Virus record (IMG/VR): IMGVR_UViG_3300021131_000010
Location: 1 to 48,086 of that record
Reading direction: 5' to 3' (one strand)
Origin: a virus
Length of the DNA stretch: 48,086 nt
Below the pieces are notes generated by a model that was not told where the DNA came from, made no database searches, and saw nothing but the letters and a program-made list of their open reading frames with translations. The translations under genes and the position numbers were made by a program. This document shows positions 6,423-32,456 of the stretch, piece after piece (the first letter of the stretch is position 1; each line of letters starts with the position of its first letter).

Positions 6423-7727
6423 TTATACCAAAGCGAAACTAGATACATTCACATTAAATATGATCTGTATGAAGCCTCTTGCTGGTGTGTAAGTTACAGA
6501 AAGACCTGCATATTTACCAATTGCATAGTCGCTTGGATTGTCAGTTACATAAGTTGTGAATGGAACTGCTTGTACAGTCACAGGTGCTAAAACCAGACCA
6601 TAAGCAATACCAGAATTCATCACACCTTGTGACACTTTTTGTAATCGGTTAATACCAGCTTGGTTGTAATACAAAGGATTAATTGGGTTGTTAGAACCAT
6701 TAATAATTGCATTGGAAATAAACAAGTTAATGTTGATTTGAACCCAATCTACTGAGTACCAATAAGTGTAGTCATTGCCATCAGAAGTTACACCCCAGAG
6801 AACTAAAGTCTTGCTAATGCCACCTTCAGCACCAGTTCCAACATAGTTCACATTGGCAGTTTTTAATGCTTGTTGTTGTGCATTAGTACCAGTAAATGCA
6901 GTAACACCATTAATGTATTGGAAAGCCATTGGTGCTACTTTATTAGTGTCGCTTGGGTTATAGTCCAGCGCATTGTATAACATTGCAGCAGCAGTAAATT
7001 CAGTTACAGGAGCACTTGCATCTTGCAACATAGAAACTACTGATTTTACATTGGTATATTTACCATAAGAAGCAATGGTTTCTGTAGCCCAGAAATACAC
7101 TTGTGAAGTAGTCGATTCATAATTTTTAGCTAAAGTAAGCATTGAAGAATCGGCTGACATTGCAGAAGATAGCAAGTAAGCATAGTACTTCAATGGATTA
7201 GCAGTTAAATATGCGGTTAAATCAGTTACACCTTGTGCGCCTGTACCGATGCCTAATTCAAGAACATAGATACCATTTGCATTACCTTGAGCAAAATAAG
7301 TGGTTGCCATAGCAACTACTTCTTGCACATCTTCAAGAGTGAAAACTGCTGAAGTTGTAGTAGCAACACCAGGATTGGTAGCTAGAGCATAAGTAAAGGT
7401 TGTAGTACCAGTAGCAGTAACAGACCAAGTGCCATTGTAGGCAGTTGGAGTAATACCAGCCACAATACCTAAAATGGTATCACCAGCAGGGATTCCATGA
7501 GGAGTTGCAGTAGTTACAGTTACTACACCTGTAGACCAAGTTGCAGAAGAAATAGTTACAGAACCCTTTAGGATGGATGTTAAATCCGCTAATTGGGTCA
7601 GTAAGTATGAAGAATTTGTAGCTAATGTAGTCGCACCCTGGCTAATCAGAGCACCAGTTCTTTGCAGAGTATTTGGTGCTGGAGCAAGGGTTTGAGTTAC
7701 ATTAACTGTAACAATTTGAGTTGTCAT
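6423..7727 (-). CDS. Contractile tail sheath protein (DUF3383-like)
   Basis: This 434-residue sheath protein would surround the tube and contract on infection. The N-terminus (TTQIVTVNVT, then ISQGATTLATNSSYLLTQLA) and the C-terminal half (TYWYSVDWVQININLFISNA, then AIGKYAGLSVTYTPARGF) match the DUF3383 sheath family. Residues about 57-130 look like an inserted beta-sandwich (VTTATPHGIPAGD, then ITPTAYNGTWSVT). It resembles a segment of the baseplate J protein and probably decorates the sheath surface. The tube gene follows after 11 bases. Confidence 0.85.
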   Translation of the reverse strand: MTTQIVTVNVTQTLAPAPNTLQRTGALISQGATTLATNSSYLLTQLADLTSILKGSVTISSATWSTGVVTVTTATPHGIPAGDTILGIVAGITPTAYNGTWSVTATGTTTFTYALATNPGVATTTSAVFTLEDVQEVVAMATTYFAQGNANGIYVLELGIGTGAQGVTDLTAYLTANPLKYYAYLLSSAMSADSSMLTLAKNYESTTSQVYFWATETIASYGKYTNVKSVVSMLQDASAPVTEFTAAAMLYNALDYNPSDTNKVAPMAFQYINGVTAFTGTNAQQQALKTANVNYVGTGAEGGISKTLVLWGVTSDGNDYTYWYSVDWVQININLFISNAIINGSNNPINPLYYNQAGINRLQKVSQGVMNSGIAYGLVLAPVTVQAVPFTTYVTDNPSDYAIGKYAGLSVTYTPARGFIQIIFNVNVSSFALV

Positions 7728-10010: not shown

Positions 10011-10514
10011 TTATTTCTTTCTTCCACGACTCTTAATTGGCTGAACACCTTCTCGAACTACTTCAATAGTTTGCTCGAACTTTTCGCTATTATCACCTGC
10101 ATTTCGCTTTTCTTCCACTACTTCTATCTCAAGACCAGATTTTTGTTTTAAACCCATTTCTTGAGCCTTAGATGCAAGGATTTGATCGGCTGCTGCTGCG
10201 GTGACATTTCTAGCTTGTTGTGCTCGATCAATCGCTTCTTGCTCACTTTGGCTAAGACCAGCTTCAATCGCTTCCACATTAATAGGTTTGTCAATTCGAT
10301 AGGCAATGCCACCAAAGCCCTTTTTGACCTTGTTTGCTTCCATCATTCCATAAATTGAGTGCTGCTTAATAATATGGTCGATTTCGTCATGAGTACCATT
10401 AATTTCCCATTGTCCACCTGCTCTAATGCGATGGTGAAATGGGCGAGGATTTTCCAACAACATATAGGTAAAGTTGAAATCTTGCTTAGAGCAATTCGCT
10501 ACATAGAGTTTCAT
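10011..10514 (-). CDS. Conserved phage protein downstream of the capsid gene, unknown
   Basis: This 167-residue protein has an N-terminal domain (MKLYVANCSKQDFNFTYML, RIRAGGQWEINGTHDEIDHI) and a charged helical tail ending IKSRGRKK. It starts a sub-operon after a capsid terminator, and its leader holds strong hairpins. Proteins with this N-terminal pattern are often found beside capsid genes in related phages, but I know no confirmed function. The basic C-terminus could contact DNA. Confidence 0.6.
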   Translation of the reverse strand: MKLYVANCSKQDFNFTYMLLENPRPFHHRIRAGGQWEINGTHDEIDHIIKQHSIYGMMEANKVKKGFGGIAYRIDKPINVEAIEAGLSQSEQEAIDRAQQARNVTAAAADQILASKAQEMGLKQKSGLEIEVVEEKRNAGDNSEKFEQTIEVVREGVQPIKSRGRKK

Positions 10515-16613: not shown

Positions 16614-17102
16614 TTATGCTGCTTTCTGTCCTTCTACAAACTCATAGTACTGGTTTTGCATATAACCACCAGCAAACAACTTGTAAACCAAGTGGCTGGC
16701 ATACCCATTGAAACTCATATTGAAGAAACTATGAGCATCCTTGAAACTATCTGGCGCACCTTCCATGCCAGCATAGTAGCCTTTCATGAACTGGTAAATC
16801 TTCTCGCCCAACTCATCACTCATTTTGTTGTTAACAAAGGCATACTTGACCTGGGGAATGTCATCCCTGACATTGTCCATTTCATAGTAGTCAATCATTC
16901 CATCAAAATGACCATATTCAAACTGGGCAACATACTTTCTCAAATCTTCATACTGGGCTGGTGGCAAATCGACAACATCCACATGAACACTACTACCCAT
17001 TGAATAACTTTTGCTGCGAACACTACCAGGGATTCCTTTGGCTTTCATGTAAGCCCGAATCATTTTGGCAGCACCAGCATGACGACTAACTTGCTTTTCC
17101 AT
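16614..17102 (-). CDS. LPD29-like small protein
   Basis: This 162-residue protein begins with AAKMIRAYMKAKGIPGSVRS and then SYSMGSSVHVDVVD. That pattern resembles the domain called large polyvalent protein-associated domain 29, found in phage and mobile-element proteins of unknown role. A second conserved stretch is QFEYGHFDGMIDYYEMDN. A good promoter and an ACGAAAGGAAAT leader precede it. An anti-defence or host-takeover role is possible but unsupported. Confidence 0.6.
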   Translation of the reverse strand: MEKQVSRHAGAAKMIRAYMKAKGIPGSVRSKSYSMGSSVHVDVVDLPPAQYEDLRKYVAQFEYGHFDGMIDYYEMDNVRDDIPQVKYAFVNNKMSDELGEKIYQFMKGYYAGMEGAPDSFKDAHSFFNMSFNGYASHLVYKLFAGGYMQNQYYEFVEGQKAA

Positions 17103-17140
17103 CTCAATTTCCTTTCGTGATTAATTGAAACTACAACTTA

Positions 17141-17168
17141 ATAATATACTAATTAGGGATAATGTCAA
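17141..17168 (-). promoter_or_regulatory. Sigma70-type promoter for the LPD29-like gene
   Basis: On the minus strand TTGACA (17168-17163) is separated by 16 bases from TATTAT (17146-17141). TTGTAGTTT and an ACGAAAGGAAA leader follow. The -35 overlaps the 3' end of the 83-residue gene. Confidence 0.65.
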
Positions 17169-17416
17169 GCAGCTTGTAGCTTTTTTTCACAATATCCATA
17201 TTCTTCTTCCAGGATCATGCGAATGTGCTCTCGGTCTACAGAATCGCCACACACAGGAATACCGCAGCGATACTTGCGACCATCCTTAGATTGCAAAAAG
17301 CGAATAGCTTGCTTAATCATTTCATAGGGAACTCCCATGTCATAAATACCGCCATCGCCATAGAAGCTGTAAACATATCTCGCAAACACAACCAAATCTT
17401 TATAGGGCATTGCCAT
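17165..17416 (-). CDS. Small protein, unknown
   Basis: This 83-residue protein (MAMPYKDLVVFARYVYSFYG) contains two Cys residues in CGIPVCGDSV and a helical acidic C-terminal part. No family is recognised. The CACGAAAGGAATAAAA leader and a UUCG hairpin lie just upstream. Confidence 0.6.
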   Translation of the reverse strand: MAMPYKDLVVFARYVYSFYGDGGIYDMGVPYEMIKQAIRFLQSKDGRKYRCGIPVCGDSVDREHIRMILEEEYGYCEKKLQAA

Positions 17417-17434
17417 TTTTATTCCTTTCGTGAA

Positions 17435-17878: not shown

Positions 17879-18193
17879 CTATAAATCTATGACTAACTGC
17901 TTAAAACTCAATCTATTGATAAAATCTTCTAAACCAGTTGAATAGTCAGAAATAATATCTAAACCATCATTAAAGTAATTTAGAGAAATCCAACCTGCTG
18001 GCATATCTTGACTTGTTGCTACAAGACTTAAATCCACACAATCATAAGAAAAACAAGCCTTCAAAATTTTCTCTAAATCCTGGCATGGGTCGCAGTCCGC
18101 TATATCATCCGCAGATGCTCCTACCAGATACCCTTCATTAAGTGCCAATTTTACAATCCGCTTAGTGATTGCTTTTTCTACAGTTGTTAACAT
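17879..18193 (-). CDS. Small protein, unknown
   Basis: This 104-residue protein has an N-terminal helix (TTVEKAITKRIVKLALNEGY) and Asp/Cys-containing segments ADDIADCDPCQDLEKIL. No domain is recognised. It is preceded by an ACGAAAGGAAATGAA leader and lies immediately downstream of the 57-residue gene. Confidence 0.6.
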   Translation of the reverse strand: MLTTVEKAITKRIVKLALNEGYLVGASADDIADCDPCQDLEKILKACFSYDCVDLSLVATSQDMPAGWISLNYFNDGLDIISDYSTGLEDFINRLSFKQLVIDL

Positions 18194-18211
18194 TTCATTT
18201 CCTTTCGTAAG

Positions 18212-18385
18212 TTAAGCTGCTTGAAACATTTGACGAGCATCATTCATAAAAACCCGATAAGCAATCAATTGCTGCTCACTAAATTCTTCTGGGTTTTGAC
18301 GAATTTCAATCAAGGCTTCCAAGAACCCAATTCCATAGTCCTGGCGGTATTCTTCAATAATTGCAATGGCTTGGTCGATCTGCAT
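18212..18385 (-). CDS. Very small helical protein, unknown
   Basis: The 57-residue frame starts at the ATG at 18385-18383 (MQIDQAIAIIEEYRQDYGIG) and ends at a TAA at 18212. The sequence is acidic and helical. The start is supported by the leader CACGAAAGGGAATTAAAA and by a good upstream promoter. No family is recognised. Confidence 0.65.
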   Translation of the reverse strand: MQIDQAIAIIEEYRQDYGIGFLEALIEIRQNPEEFSEQQLIAYRVFMNDARQMFQAA

Positions 18386-18424
18386 TTTTAATTCCCTTTC
18401 GTGGTTAATTAAGACTACATTCTT

Positions 18425-18538: not shown

Positions 18539-18582
18539 GTAAGTGTAGTTTGTTTGTTTGATTTTTCACGAAAGGAATCAAA

Positions 18583-18726
18583 ATGGCTTTTTATGTCTAT
18601 GGTGTCCCAGTTTTCGGTGTTGCCCAAGCCCAGGAGATGTATGCGGTGGCTGTCGCTGGTGGTGCAATGATCCAGGCAGAAGCAATTGCGGAAGTGATTG
18701 CCCAATTTGAATACATGGGGGTGTGA
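18583..18726 (+). CDS. Micro-protein A of a tandem pair, unknown
   Basis: This 47-residue frame starts at the ATG at 18583 behind a CACGAAAGGAATCAAA leader. It contains YGVPVFGVAQAQEM and QAEAIAEVIAQFEYMGV. It is clearly related to the next frame (shared YG-x2-VF-x2-AQAQ and a VI-x-QF ending), so the two probably arose by duplication. The helical, uncharged middle could be weakly membrane-associated. No known family. Confidence 0.65.
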   Translation: MAFYVYGVPVFGVAQAQEMYAVAVAGGAMIQAEAIAEVIAQFEYMGV

Positions 18727-19101: not shown

Positions 19102-19117
19102 CTACGAAAGGGAAATC

Positions 19118-19300
19118 ATGTTAGTTAAATATTTTGTTGAAAGTTCGGAAGTTGATTATGACGATTGTTTAGAGTATTTCATTCTTTATAGCGGATTCTC
19201 CAAAGAAGATGCTATTTCTGAGTTTGATTCCAATAACAATCCAGAGTGTGCTGCTTATATTAGCGAATTGTGCTCAGATGTCGAAGTAGTCTACGAGTAA
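19118..19300 (+). CDS. Small acidic protein, unknown
   Basis: This 60-residue acidic protein (MLVKYFVESSEVDYDDCLEY) starts behind a TACGAAAGGGAAATC leader and ends before a terminator. It is strongly negative and resembles DNA-mimic-like phage proteins only in composition. No family is recognised. Confidence 0.6.
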   Translation: MLVKYFVESSEVDYDDCLEYFILYSGFSKEDAISEFDSNNNPECAAYISELCSDVEVVYE

Positions 19301-27120: not shown

Positions 27121-27882
27121 TTACTTCTTTTTTTTATCTCTGGCATCCAGAATAAATTTTTTCATCTCAAAATAGCTACCAAATCTGGATTGTTGAGGAT
27201 CACCACCACACTCAATGCGATAGGCTTCCTCGATTTGCTGATCAGTACCCAGGGGTAATTCTTTGGCTTTTTGTTGGGCTTGTTGAATCCAACTAGCTTC
27301 AAAAGACCGCCAACCTTTAAAAATGATGGTTTCCAAAACATCTGCCAATGGCATCTTGGCTAATTCAGCTTCTTTAATCAATCTTGCAAGAACTCTATCG
27401 GTTACTGGTGCTTTAAGCCTTTTCCTATAAACCAAAAAATCTTTCCAAAGATCAACACTTACACCTTCAGGTGTCTTTGTCTCTCTCTTTGTCTCTGTCT
27501 CTGTCTCTGTCTCTGTCTCTGTCTCTGTCTCTGTCTCTGTCTCTGTCTCTGTCTCTGTCTCTGGTATAGCATCTTGATAACACTCTGCTAGCACTCCGCT
27601 AGCAATAGAAAATAATCCCTTATCTATCAATGGTTTAAGACCGATAGTTACATCCTTTTCTGACCATCTAAGGCGAAAAGCTATTTCTTCTATAGACCCA
27701 TCAAAAATACCATCTTTTGACTCACTTGCTAGCAACCAAAGCATAGGTGCTAGCGCCTTGCTAGCAATAGGCAAGCGAGAAAAATCTCTATCATCCAAAA
27801 GAGTTTTGTGAAGTTTTACCCAGGGTGGATTGCGATCTTTATAGTGCTGAAAGGATTGCCAGTTTTTAGGAATTAGCAGCAT
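27121..27882 (-). CDS. Replication initiator/helicase-loader-like protein with (Glu-Thr)n linker
   Basis: This 253-residue protein has an N-terminal winged-helix region (WVKLHKTLLDDRDFSRLPIA, then LRWSEKDVTIGLKPLIDKGL) as in phage replication proteins of the O/DnaT type. A Glu-Thr repeat linker follows (residues about 108-134). The C-terminal half (LWKDFLVYRKRLKAPVTDRV, IFKGWRSFEASWIQ) resembles the DnaT-like domain that binds single-stranded DNA and helicase. It probably loads the host replicative helicase, since no phage helicase or polymerase is seen. Confidence 0.7.
   Translation of the reverse strand: MLLIPKNWQSFQHYKDRNPPWVKLHKTLLDDRDFSRLPIASKALAPMLWLLASESKDGIFDGSIEEIAFRLRWSEKDVTIGLKPLIDKGLFSIASGVLAECYQDAIPETETETETETETETETETETETETKRETKTPEGVSVDLWKDFLVYRKRLKAPVTDRVLARLIKEAELAKMPLADVLETIIFKGWRSFEASWIQQAQQKAKELPLGTDQQIEEAYRIECGGDPQQSRFGSYFEMKKFILDARDKKKK
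27491..27562. repeat. Hexanucleotide microsatellite, 12 x GTCTCT
   Basis: Twelve perfect GTCTCT units lie in the initiator-like gene, with imperfect units on both sides. On the coding strand they encode alternating Glu and Thr. The unit is six bases, so slippage would change linker length without breaking the frame. Confidence 0.95.
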
Positions 27883-28586: not shown

Positions 28587-28618
28587 TACTTGTGTCAACT
28601 TACGAAAGGGAGATAAAG

Positions 28619-28918
28619 ATGTACAACAACAATCGCTATTATGAGCCAGAAGATGATGATTCAGATTTGCTGGATGATCGAGTTGCTGAACTCATGAAAG
28701 ATGAATACAGCATTGAAAAGTATCACAACTTTGCTGAAGGTATTTCAGAAGCAAAAGAAGCAGATCGAGTCATCATTGAAGAAATGCTTTCCAAATCTCA
28801 TGCTGATATGGACTTTGAAGCCCTGGGTCGCAAACTATGGTCTATGGCTTATGAGTACATGGAAAACTATGCAATCAGTCATGCAGAAGAAAACTTAGCA
28901 TCAGGTTATTTAGATTAA
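28619..28918 (+). CDS. Acidic small protein, unknown
   Basis: The 99-residue frame starts at the ATG at 28619, behind ACGAAAGGGAGATAAAG (an upstream TTG at 28592 is unlikely). It is acidic (YEPEDDDSDLLDDRVAELMK) and helical. It heads the recombination operon. An acidic first early gene could be a DNA mimic, but no motif shows this. Confidence 0.65.
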   Translation: MYNNNRYYEPEDDDSDLLDDRVAELMKDEYSIEKYHNFAEGISEAKEADRVIIEEMLSKSHADMDFEALGRKLWSMAYEYMENYAISHAEENLASGYLD

Positions 28919-28939: not shown

Positions 28940-29473
28940 ATGAAAACTTTTAATGAACTTCGCAAAATCAATGTCAATGAGCACACCGAAAAGAAAGGTC
29001 GATTTACTTATCTTTCTTGGACATGGGCTGTAGATCAGCTATTGCAAAATGATCCATCTGCTACCTGGACTTTTGGCGATCCAGTTTACTTTAATGAAAC
29101 TATGATGGTCTTTTGTACTGTCAATGCTTTTGGCAAATCTATGACCTGCCAGATGCCAGTTATCAATAATCAGAATAAAGCTATCCCTAATCCAAATGCT
29201 ATGGATGTGAATACAGCGATGATGCGCTGCTTAACCAAGACAATATCACTTTTTGGTCTGGGTCTGTACATTTATTCTGGAGATGATCTGCCCTTTGAAG
29301 ATGAAAAAGAGCCAGTAGATACTGCGCCATATATCAAAAATATTATGAAATCTTTGACTATGGATGAGTTAAAAAATAACTACATCGCAGCAGTTAAGGC
29401 TTGTGGCACATTAAAAGAATTGGAGCAAGCCAAAGACATTCGCAAGAATGAATTAGTGGCGGTGCAATCATGA
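28940..29473 (+). CDS. Single-strand annealing protein, Sak3/DUF1071-like
   Basis: This 177-residue recombinase has RFTYLSWTWAVDQLLQNDPS near the start and a conserved core: MPVINNQNKAIPNP, then DVNTAMMRCLTKTISLFGLG, then LYIYSGDDLPFEDE. These are hallmarks of Sak3-type annealing proteins. It pairs complementary strands in phage recombination, working with the exonuclease encoded next and SSB. Its stop overlaps the exonuclease start by four bases. Confidence 0.85.
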   Translation: MKTFNELRKINVNEHTEKKGRFTYLSWTWAVDQLLQNDPSATWTFGDPVYFNETMMVFCTVNAFGKSMTCQMPVINNQNKAIPNPNAMDVNTAMMRCLTKTISLFGLGLYIYSGDDLPFEDEKEPVDTAPYIKNIMKSLTMDELKNNYIAAVKACGTLKELEQAKDIRKNELVAVQS

Positions 29474-30090
29474 CCGACATATTACAAGGCACTCCAGAGT
29501 GGCATCAGCTTCGCCTGGGTAAAGTGACTGCATCCAGGGTGGCTGACATCCTGGCTAAGACTAAAACTGGTGTTTCTGCAAGTAGGGGTAATTACCTAAT
29601 TGAATTGGCAATTCAAAGGGTTACAGGTCAGATTGAAGAATCCTATACTAATGCTGCTATGGCATGGGGGACTGAAACTGAACCGAAAGCGAGAATGGCT
29701 TATGAGGTATTTAATGATGTCCTGGTTGAACAAGTACCTTTTGTGGATCATCCCACCATTAAAGGCTTTGGTGCTAGTCCTGATGGGCTGGTTAATATTG
29801 ATGGGCTTTGTGAAATCAAGTGTCCCAATTCTGCAACTCATTGGTCATATTTAAAATCTGGTGAGCCACCCAATAAATACTTTATTCAGATGCAAGCCCA
29901 GATAGCTTGTACTCAAAGAGATTGGAATGACTTTATTTCTTTTGATCCCAGGATGCCAGAGAAAAGTCGATTGTTTGTGAAAAGGGTTTTCCGAGATGAC
30001 AAGTTCATTGGCATCATGGAAGATGAAGTAAAGCAGTTTTTGGAAGAAGTAGATAGAGAAACCGAACTCATGTTAAATCGGCAAATTTAA
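29470..30090 (+). CDS. YqaJ/lambda-exonuclease-like recombination nuclease
   Basis: This 206-residue PD-(D/E)XK nuclease has GTPEWHQLRLGKVTASRVAD at the start, GTETEPKAR, GASPDGLV (D105), LCEIKCP (E115, K117) and YFIQMQAQIACT (Q140/Q142), the complete catalytic set. It digests one strand from double-strand ends to make substrates for the annealing protein. Coupling with Sak3 and SSB is a complete Red-like system. Confidence 0.9.
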   Translation: MTDILQGTPEWHQLRLGKVTASRVADILAKTKTGVSASRGNYLIELAIQRVTGQIEESYTNAAMAWGTETEPKARMAYEVFNDVLVEQVPFVDHPTIKGFGASPDGLVNIDGLCEIKCPNSATHWSYLKSGEPPNKYFIQMQAQIACTQRDWNDFISFDPRMPEKSRLFVKRVFRDDKFIGIMEDEVKQFLEEVDRETELMLNRQI

Positions 30091-30103: not shown

Positions 30104-30517
30104 ATGGCATCAGTAAATAAAGTAATCATTGTGGGCAACCTGGGTAAAGACCCTGAACTTCGCAGCTTTCCAGATGGCAGCCCAGTTTGTAACATTTCTG
30201 TAGCTTGTACCGAAAAATACAAGGATAAGCAGGGTGAGCAAAAAGAAGTAACTGAATGGGTCAATGTAGTCTTTTTTGGGAAACTGGCTGAAATCGCTGG
30301 TGACTATCTTAGAAAAGGCAGTTCGGTCTATGTTGAAGGCAAATTAAAGACTGAGAAATACACCGACAAAAATACTGGAGTAGAGAAGTACTCTACAAAG
30401 GTCATAGGCAGCACTATGCAGATGTTAGGGGGTAAGCCTTCAGATGATTCAAAACCTTCTCAAAGCCCTCAAAAAGCAGTCAATTTAGCCGATTTAGATT
30501 CCGATATACCTTTCTAG
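30104..30517 (+). CDS. ssb: Single-stranded DNA-binding protein
   Basis: This 137-residue SSB has an OB-fold with [20 protein letters not shown] at the start and [20 protein letters not shown] in the middle. It ends with the acidic tip DLDSDIPF that recruits partner proteins in bacterial SSBs. It protects single strands during replication and recombination. It is transcribed with Sak3 and exonuclease. Confidence 0.95.
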
Positions 30518-30526
30518 GAGAGAACC

Positions 30527-30655
30527 ATGAAAAAATATGCAATCGCAGCAGCTTTATTTTTTGTAGTAGGTCTTGCTTCAGCCCAGTATGCAAATTGCTG
30601 GCAGCAATATGTGTGCGGTGGTGGTGGCTGCCATTGGGTCACTATTTGCAGGTAA
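30527..30655 (+). CDS. Secreted four-cysteine mini-protein
   Basis: The 42-residue frame starts at the ATG at 30527 behind TAGGAG, which overlaps the ssb stop. Residues 1-19 are a signal peptide (KK, then a hydrophobic AAALFFVVGLASA) with an ASA cleavage site. The mature part has about 23 residues and four Cys (24, 30, 35, 41) around a GGGG turn, probably forming two disulphides in the periplasm. It is too short for a known enzyme. It could affect the envelope or exclude other phages; function unknown. Confidence 0.7.
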   Translation: MKKYAIAAALFFVVGLASAQYANCWQQYVCGGGGCHWVTICR

Positions 30656-30663
30656 AATGAACA

Positions 30664-30744
30664 TGGAGTCCCTAGTCGGGAGTGGTACACCCAAAAACTA
30701 CCTTCTGGTGCAATGCCAGACCTTTCGTGAGGTTAGGGACTCCA
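30664..30744. ncRNA. Structured RNA candidate, cloverleaf-like
   Basis: An 11-bp perfect inverted repeat, TGGAGTCCCTA (30664-30674) with TAGGGACTCCA (30734-30744), encloses three smaller hairpins. They are GGTA/TACC, TCTGG/CCAGA (30704-30720, 7-base loop) and ACCT/AGGT (30720-30733). Size (about 80 nt), an AGTGGTA loop and a CCA at the 3' end recall a tRNA, but anticodon and T-loops are not canonical. It lies in the 178-bp gap between the secreted-peptide gene and the next promoter. Strand is uncertain because the fold is near symmetric. Confidence 0.5.
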
Positions 30745-30768
30745 CCCATGCAAAAAAGCAACAACCTA

Positions 30769-30796
30769 TTGCAGATGTATTATATCTATGTAATAC
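30769..30796 (+). promoter_or_regulatory. Early promoter TTGCAG-N16-TAATACTA with inverted repeat
   Basis: TTGCAG (30769-30774), 16 bases and TAATAC (30791-30796) are followed by TATGAATGTAGT and CACGAAAGGAA before the ATG at 30834. GTATTA and TAATAC (30777-30796) form an inverted repeat over the -10, a candidate operator. The layout is almost the same as the promoter at 28559. Confidence 0.72.
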
Positions 30797-30833
30797 TATG
30801 AATGTAGTCTGATAACCACGAAAGGAAATCAAA

Positions 30834-31022
30834 ATGAATATTGTTGAAATCTATCTTCAGCCTGAAAGATATAACCCAAGAGTGCAAGCCATAATTCCTG
30901 GCTGCTGGATGGCAGTTAGAAGTGATGGTAATGAATATCCAGTTTGTGCTGAATACTCAGCCAGCAATGCGGAAGAAGTATTTGCAATGATTAATGATTC
31001 ACAATCAAGACTTGGCAATTAA
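30834..31022 (+). CDS. Small protein, unknown
   Basis: This 62-residue protein (MNIVEIYLQPERYNPRVQAI) has the consensus CACGAAAGGAAATCAAA leader. It is the first of a run of tiny rightward genes. It has a central CWMAVRSDGNEYPVC and an acidic C-terminal helix. No family is recognised. Confidence 0.62.
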   Translation: MNIVEIYLQPERYNPRVQAIIPGCWMAVRSDGNEYPVCAEYSASNAEEVFAMINDSQSRLGN

Positions 31023-32195: not shown

Positions 32196-32222
32196 AATAC
32201 AATTTTTCACGAAAGGTATTAT

Positions 32223-32456
32223 ATGACTTGGAATGTTCGATTGATGAAGATGTACGATGAACCTGATGAGGTTTATTTTGAGATGCGAGAGGTTTTCTAC
32301 AATGAAATGGGAAAGCCTTTAGGTCATACTGCTGCGGTTGTTGGCGGTCAAACCATTGATGAGATCGAGCACTACCTAGGTTTTATGAAAGAAGCATTGA
32401 CCAGGCATATTCTGGATGAGAGAGACTTTCATCAAAAGGGTGGTGAAAATGAGTGA
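32223..32456 (+). CDS. Small protein, unknown
   Basis: This 77-residue protein (MTWNVRLMKMYDEPDEVYFE) has a beta-strand-rich start and a helical end. This layout is common in small phage proteins annotated as DUFs. A CACGAAAGGTATTAT leader precedes it. It overlaps the next gene by eight bases. Confidence 0.6.
   Translation: MTWNVRLMKMYDEPDEVYFEMREVFYNEMGKPLGHTAAVVGGQTIDEIEHYLGFMKEALTRHILDERDFHQKGGENE

Follow-up and report, generated by a model that had tools for sequence, protein, structure and literature searches.

The window analysed here, meaning the whole stretch of 48,086 bp in the IMG/VR record IMGVR_UViG_3300021131_000010, is a circular-looking phage genome whose ends share a 99-bp repeat. 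On its plus strand an RNA element (30664-30744) sits 3' of a recombination operon, which encodes a Sak single-strand annealing protein and a YqaJ exonuclease (28940-30090, both plus strand, by Pfam), followed by the single-strand DNA-binding protein SSB (ssb, 30104-30517, plus strand, Pfam PF00436, E 3e-37). An ORF of 42 aa, which most relatives are without, lies between ssb and the RNA (30527-30655, plus strand), and the element itself occupies the non-coding gap that an earlier note on this DNA had placed it in, between ssb with the 42-aa ORF and the next gene.

Also present is the inverted repeat which that note had described, 11 bp without a mismatch, with TGGAGTCCCTA at 30664-30674 and TAGGGACTCCA at 30734-30744. 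Taken alone, however, it is not beyond chance, as the window holds four perfect 11-bp repeats with 20 to 80 nt between the arms, where first-order Markov sequences have 1.7 on average. The fold of the element is more stable than that of shuffled sequences (z = -3.0, window), and I judge the element real because of its homologues and not because of the inverted repeat alone. A replication origin at this place was considered and rejected; the skew mostly tracks gene strand and has no sharp turning point there. About 15 nt past the element (window 30744-30800 and relatives), GCAACA is conserved in the phages with three U in the seed of the RNA (below), with a weak downstream complement (..TTGTTTGC) and then tandem TGTAATAC repeats before the next gene, a region that could possibly be a terminator, promoter or operator. 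Elsewhere in the window, tandem TGTCTC/GAGACA repeats (27460-27587) lie within ORF 27121-27882 and encode a (TE)n run in its protein.

Relatives of the element

A protein search with the window's SSB yielded 80 loci in IMG/VR, and reading the DNA past ssb revealed a diverged element at the same place in many of them. The covariance model R1, built from 13 sequences including the window, found one element per record in 35 records, again including the window, and matched members outside its training set with E-values from 1e-16 to 0.3. Another ten loci came from two more ssb scans followed by a search with a structural descriptor free of any seed sequence, and two (L253 and L254) were added by inspection, which makes 47 records in all; the loci of a first loose pattern scan, which was unspecific, are excluded. 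The family is therefore present in at least 47 IMG/VR records, which are environmental, mostly freshwater, bacterial viruses, and the element lies 3' of ssb in every member.

No Rfam family matches the window, nor do any match seven related loci at permissive thresholds. An anti-hemB match (RF02837) in L052 was discarded, as it reaches 27.6 bits against a cut-off of 49.5 and its score is driven by a nearby terminator hairpin. For prophages and hosts, no convincing member came from a pattern scan of bacterial and archaeal genomes or from running the covariance model on 399 genomes that belong to one family around a Trinickia record, a weak match in L237 being probably due to chance; both empty results carry little weight. 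Annotated GenBank phages gave no DNA match, and the ssb relatives tried among them no model match. Judged by its homologues, the element is one member of a conserved RNA family that has no Rfam counterpart.

A second structured-RNA candidate was observed just 3' of ssb in L053 (also L055 and L057), L063, L047, L048, L287 and L049/L056. It has a covarying closing stem (TGGGAC/GTCCCG, CTGGGGC/GCCCCA) around GCGGATGC ... GCAGCGAGTA, then RCC, and is without Rfam match in the loci scanned; several phages carry it directly upstream of the pseudoknot RNA described below. In the related phage L048, an int-alpA RNA (RF02996) scores above the Rfam gathering score at 2116-2190 on the minus strand.

Fold and compensatory changes

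Including its RCC tail, the structured RNA spans 30664-30747 on the plus strand, where R1 scores 91.6 bits (the window being part of the training set). Its closing stem, P1, pairs 30664-30674 with 30734-30744 and encloses an H-type pseudoknot, made of P2 (GGG at 30678-30680 with CCC at 30690-30692) and a second stem, PK, in which GGTA on the loop side (30684-30687) pairs with TACC (30699-30702), the two stems being connected by a linker (AAAAAC, 30693-30698) that is A-rich in all members. The pseudoknot is followed by the hairpin P3 with its GCAAN loop (TCTGGT GCAAT GCCAGA, 30704-30720), by a mostly unpaired stretch, CCUUUCGUG (30721-30729), referred to here as the seed, as it is complementary to the leaders of other genes, and by the 3' strand of P1; a conserved RCC(C) tail starts at A30744 and ends in 30745-30747.

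I parsed 36 distinct structures by hand and checked them against the genome sequence. All 36 have P1 (7-13 bp as parsed, and up to 16 bp in the window's closest relatives), the H-type pseudoknot, whose stems P2 and PK have 3-4 bp each, with its A-rich linker, and CCUUU(U)CG(UG) between the pseudoknot or P3 and the 3' strand of P1; RCC stands at the end of P1 or directly after it in every one of them. The pseudoknot loop reads CUNNNNU or AGUNNNNCA in most members, and the loop of P3 is GCAAN in the commonest groups. P3 is missing from L065, L071, L231, L249, L253, L254, L257, L263, L318, L343 and L348 and is therefore optional. The seed has a mean unpaired probability of 0.47 in the window, a moderate accessibility, and of 0.47-0.92 across the RNAs computed. 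Immediately 5' of P1, six loci (L027, L028, L023, L030, L031 and L232) have an additional hairpin whose sequence varies (e.g. GACTAATGCTCCTTCACAAAGTGATTAGTC).

This architecture differs from the cloverleaf of three hairpins that the earlier note had proposed. Its first hairpin (GGTA..TACC) is one half of the pseudoknot, of which GGG/CCC is the other half, and its third (CCUUUCGUGAGG) is not conserved and corresponds to the mostly unpaired seed, so that the middle one (TCTGGT/GCCAGA) is the sole one of the three conserved as a hairpin. Likewise, the supposed D-loop AGTGGTA is the pseudoknot loop, which in homologues reads CTTGTA, CTAGCA, CTAGGAA and others, and the supposed 3' CCA shares bases with the stem, while what is conserved on the 3' side is the RCC at the stem end. 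What remains is P1, an H-type pseudoknot and an optional hairpin, with neither anticodon arm nor T-loop. A degenerate tRNA or tRNA mimic was consequently rejected on three grounds: ARAGORN finds no tRNA gene, the Rfam tRNA model has no match in the window at gathering score, and the conserved fold is a pseudoknot, in an element that contains neither a T-loop nor U33.

Pairs were counted over distinct sequence types, because many contigs are near-copies of each other. All 120 inner pairs of P1 are standard over 20 distinct types, which none of 100,000 shuffles reaches; the same holds for PK, with 61 of 64 standard pairs over 16 types, and for P3, with 47 of 48 over 12 types (0 of 100,000 shuffles each). 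In P2, all 21 pairs over seven types are standard (GGG/CCC, ATC/GAT, GTT/AAC, GAG/CTC and others), a result reached by 21 of 100,000 shuffles. When ten members are aligned without gaps over 25 nt, each of the four PK pairs has changed compensatorily on both sides, the covariation score of PK is 0.54 as compared to 0.24 +/- 0.04 when shuffled, and sliding the PK partners by 1-3 columns abolishes the covariation. The parse by eye was made on the very sequences that were tested and is biased towards pairing. However, I do not expect this bias to suffice as an explanation, because it accounts neither for the double changes nor for the recovery of the seed by a descriptor that was blind to it: all ten members found by that descriptor carry CCUUU(U)CGUG in the expected place. 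For the earlier note, a lack of compensatory changes in homologues was to speak against the structure, and clearly the opposite is found, above all in P1 and PK. As far as sequences can tell, these changes are decisive for the fold.

Over distinct helices, the non-Watson-Crick pairs comprise 23 G-U and two A-C pairs, and therefore the plus-strand RNA is the conserved product on which selection acts. A conserved RNA fold on one strand, which is a criterion for the class of trans-acting base-pairing sRNAs, is thus shown by the alignments.

Seed and leaders

The earlier note correctly saw CCTTTCGTG within the element, at 30721-30729. Its counterpart CACGAAAGG occurs at six more sites in the window, all of them leaders, where 0.1 would be expected, and altogether nine genes of the window have ACGAAAGG 6-9 nt before their start codon. 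On the plus strand, CACGAAAGG precedes ORFs of 62 aa (leader 30817-30825, ORF 30834-31022), 77 aa (32208-32216, ORF 32223-32456) and 47 aa (18567-18575, ORF 18583-18726), and ACGAAAGG precedes ORFs of 99 aa (28602-28609, ORF 28619-28918) and 60 aa (19104-19111, ORF 19118-19300), the latter directly past the stop codon of the previous gene. On the minus strand, CACGAAAGG is the leader of ORFs of 57 aa (18395-18403, ORF 18212-18385), 83 aa (17424-17432, ORF 17165-17416) and 162 aa, the last with an LPD29 domain (17111-17119, ORF 16614-17102), and ACGAAAGG that of a 104-aa ORF (18201-18208, ORF 17879-18193), again directly past the preceding stop codon. These genes encode small proteins of unknown function, the LPD29-domain protein among them. 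Some of the leaders lie behind a promoter-like region and others directly behind a preceding stop codon; what fixes the motif in place is therefore the start codon, not a promoter.

The number of U residues in the seed varies between phages, and the leaders vary with it. With three U in its RNA, a genome has many ACGAAAGG leaders, and with four U it has ACGAAAAGG leaders. Counted over whole records, the numbers of CGAAAGG and CGAAAAGG leaders are 12/1, 9/0, 14/1, 8/1, 10/1 and 6/0 in three-U records and 0/5, 0/4, 0/5, 0/5, 0/4 and 2/5 in four-U records, with mixed cases of 5/6 and 3/4. Overall, a whole record contains up to 14 CGAAAGG and 0-2 CGAAAAGG leaders in three-U phages, and 1-6 CGAAAAGG leaders and usually no CGAAAGG leader (at most five) in four-U phages, all of these counts being lower bounds because many IMG/VR records are fragmentary. 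Where ssb relatives lack the element, leaders occur at about the level of a reversed-pattern control, except in L256 and L259. These two near-identical contigs have four CGAAAGG leaders each and no element recognised 3' of ssb; their RNA may lie elsewhere, be too diverged, or have been lost.

The bases in front of the Shine-Dalgarno sequence show the same dependence. GAAAGG is preceded by AC in 84 of 110 cases in three-U genomes, in 3 of 28 in four-U genomes and in at most 2 of 35 in element-less ssb relatives, and GAAAAGG is so preceded in 46 of 57 cases in four-U genomes, in none of four in three-U genomes and in none of eight in genomes without the element. The CAC prefix is conserved even though it is not needed for pairing with the ribosome. 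The only member with CCUUUUCGA, L031, has TCGAAAAGG in three of its four leaders examined. Among 1476 ORF starts of 33 members, 104 pair with the seed of their own genome at -13 kcal/mol or below, as compared to four with shuffled seeds. These numbers point to an accessible seed that is complementary to several unlinked targets, another property by which sRNAs are recognised.

On the ssb tree, which may differ from the history of the RNA, the four-U phage L031 falls within the three-U half, and the three-U phages L266 and L348 stand among four-U phages, which suggests that the seed type has switched more than once. The clearest independent switches are those of L031 and L266, and in both the leaders are concordant. 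The exception is L348, which has a three-U seed (element 6424-6487) and a single clear leader (at about 6756) with four A, a mismatch for which a recent seed mutation is a possible cause. A related but non-matching leader, CACYCGAAAGG, is kept by sak and a queF-like gene in the four-U group of L249, L320 and L343 (4412-5065 and 10013-10417 in L249, and likewise in the other two). The second of these L249 genes (10013-10417) encodes a QueF-like protein (PF14489), which in a phage suggests deazaguanine metabolism or DNA modification. In four-U phages, the genes that follow the leaders include those for a primosomal or replication-initiation-like protein and a DUF932 protein. With the exception of L348, seed and targets thus appear to change together in evolution, as would be expected of an sRNA and its targets, and it is this co-change, together with the fold, that the comparison of genomes shows.

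Cognate duplexes of seed and leader have predicted energies of -14.8/-19.5 kcal/mol, against -11.0/-16.3 kcal/mol for swapped pairs. With a beta-proteobacterial 16S tail, which may not be that of the host, the same leaders reach -9.8/-6.6 kcal/mol. In the predicted duplex the entire Shine-Dalgarno sequence is taken up by the seed, and the paired region stops 6-9 nt short of the AUG. The suggestion of the earlier note that many mRNAs might be bound by CCUUUCGUG at their CACGAAAGG leaders has thereby gained considerably, as seed and leaders change together between genomes, and pairing of the RNA with ACGAAAGG leaders is strongly supported by the sequence comparison.

Proposed regulation of early genes and rival readings

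I propose that the element gives rise to a small RNA of the phage that base-pairs in trans, arises from the 3' end of the ssb transcript and represses genes through their early-gene leaders, a reading to which I assign a probability of about 0.68. In this RNA, P1 and the compact H-type pseudoknot would be a stable scaffold on which CCUUU(U)CG(UG) is exposed. The seed would pair over 9-12 nt with the leader CACGAAA(A)GG, overlapping the Shine-Dalgarno sequence of the phage's own early and replication genes, and, being stronger than pairing with the 16S tail, this would keep 30S subunits off. Once the recombination and replication operon is transcribed, the RNA would turn the leader genes down, the outcome being a translational shut-off of early genes by an RNA made together with ssb. 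A discrete transcript, its pairing in the cell, the sign of the repression and its timing are what I infer from the sequences. An origin at the 3' end of the ssb transcript fits the intrinsic terminators, with T-rich tails, found 6-36 nt past the element in 10 of 13 four-U members. None is recognisable in the window or in nearly all other three-U members, and no promoter consensus adjoins the element in the window.

Alternatively, the same RNA may act on the same leaders by activation, opening or protecting them or providing a contact like that of an anti-Shine-Dalgarno sequence that favours phage mRNAs. Activating sRNAs exist, the co-change of seed and leaders would be the same, and the complement of an RNA kept on many early genes also fits a positive regulon. 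However, an RNA bound over the Shine-Dalgarno sequence close to the AUG normally blocks entry of the 30S subunit, which is just where the predicted pairing falls, and the leaders are short, mostly A/T and without evident inhibitory structure that could be opened, so I consider activation unlikely. The related idea that the RNA is a trans-acting anti-Shine-Dalgarno that reprograms initiation on the phage's own early mRNAs, possibly positively, is equally doubtful; if true, a pseudoknot-scaffolded RNA would be the single reader of a 9-10-nt address carried by each target leader, and from one phage lineage to another the two would evolve jointly. A DNA operator or protein site CACGAAAGG, common to the leaders and the RNA locus and complementary to the seed by coincidence, is considerably less probable. 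A single double-stranded motif would indeed occur in both orientations and change everywhere together, but the motif keeps its 6-9 nt to the start codon and not a distance to a promoter, occurs inside operons after an upstream stop codon, and at the RNA locus is invariably antisense and confined to one unpaired position of a conserved fold, which an operator leaves unexplained.

The short stretch CCUUUC also occurs within the beta-proteobacterial type of 16S tail and GAAAGGA is a good Shine-Dalgarno sequence, so the RNA could mimic the 3' end of 16S rRNA and bind ribosomal or host factors, the leaders merely being good ribosome-binding sites. Yet the four-U seed and the ACGAAAAGG leaders depart from 16S jointly, at the cost of ribosome pairing (-6.6 as compared to -9.8 kcal/mol), and the CAC prefix, which lies outside the Shine-Dalgarno sequence, is conserved only in genomes with the RNA; I regard such mimicry as more improbable still. 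Less probable again is a tRNA-like RNA or RNase P substrate, in which P1 and RCC would imitate the helix of acceptor and T-stem for processing or tRNA mimicry. RNase P contacts the RCC of tRNA precursors, and P1 ends in or precedes RCC in every parsed member, but the tRNA searches, the missing T-loop and anticodon arm and the dispensable P3 speak against it, and at most this could describe processing, while the coupling of seed and leaders would be unaccounted for. Least probable of all is a cis-acting riboswitch or attenuator of the downstream gene or of the ssb mRNA. Small H-type pseudoknots with A-rich linkers are known from riboswitches, namely preQ1-I and SAM-II; however, most four-U members have a separate terminator directly behind the element, close relatives that have kept the element differ in their next gene, no ribosome-binding site is overlapped, and the riboswitch models of Rfam have no match.

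The small RNA proposed here has features in common with several known systems. Like trans-acting bacterial and phage or prophage sRNAs, it has a short unstructured seed, many targets, pairing over the Shine-Dalgarno sequence, and an origin in a 3'UTR or operon end with an adjoining terminator in most four-U members. It departs from them in that nothing in the window was recognisable as Hfq-type sRNA anatomy, in that the seed is inside a closed multi-stem structure, and in that the targets are the phage's own genes, each with the same 9-10-nt leader. With the preQ1-I riboswitch (RF00522) it shares the small H-type pseudoknot with an A-rich third loop, but the fold contains no downstream ribosome-binding site, is closed by P1 with P3 and the seed following the pseudoknot, and has PK sequences that vary freely, unlike an aptamer core; in seven related loci, the preQ1-I model matches nothing at E-values of up to 5. 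In the c4 antisense RNA of phages P1 and P7 (RF01695), loop sequences complementary to the ribosome-binding region of a phage mRNA prevent that mRNA from being translated (PMC12197685, section 7). The RNA described here is likewise a structured phage RNA complementary to phage ribosome-binding regions, but c4 has one known target, ant, whereas this RNA faces many unlinked leaders and has a different fold of P1 and H-type pseudoknot. The STAXI motif (RF01728) is a pseudoknotted RNA that was also found near ssb genes (PMC2864571), though it consists of two or three tandem pseudoknots, often with UUCG loops, and the present RNA of a single pseudoknot inside a long closing stem, in one copy and with a conserved seed. 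Neither the c4 nor the STAXI model matches the window or seven related loci. No description of this RNA family was found in the openly licensed literature, and most likely it is an undescribed family of phage RNAs that works like a trans-acting sRNA, with another anatomy and a phage-internal regulon.

The observed distribution of leaders suggests that a single RNA may control a whole set of viral genes, so that the comparison of sequences alone would lead to a phage-wide regulon with a readable address. Few phage-encoded small RNAs are known, and for most of those described the targets are host genes or just one gene of the phage. The covariance model could be used to find the family in metatranscriptomes, and the family would also give naturally orthogonal pairs of sRNA and leader. 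The natural seed swaps, three U with three A and four U with four A, are ready-made compensatory mutants, and they could offer a direct test of how phages time the shut-off of their early genes at the level of translation.
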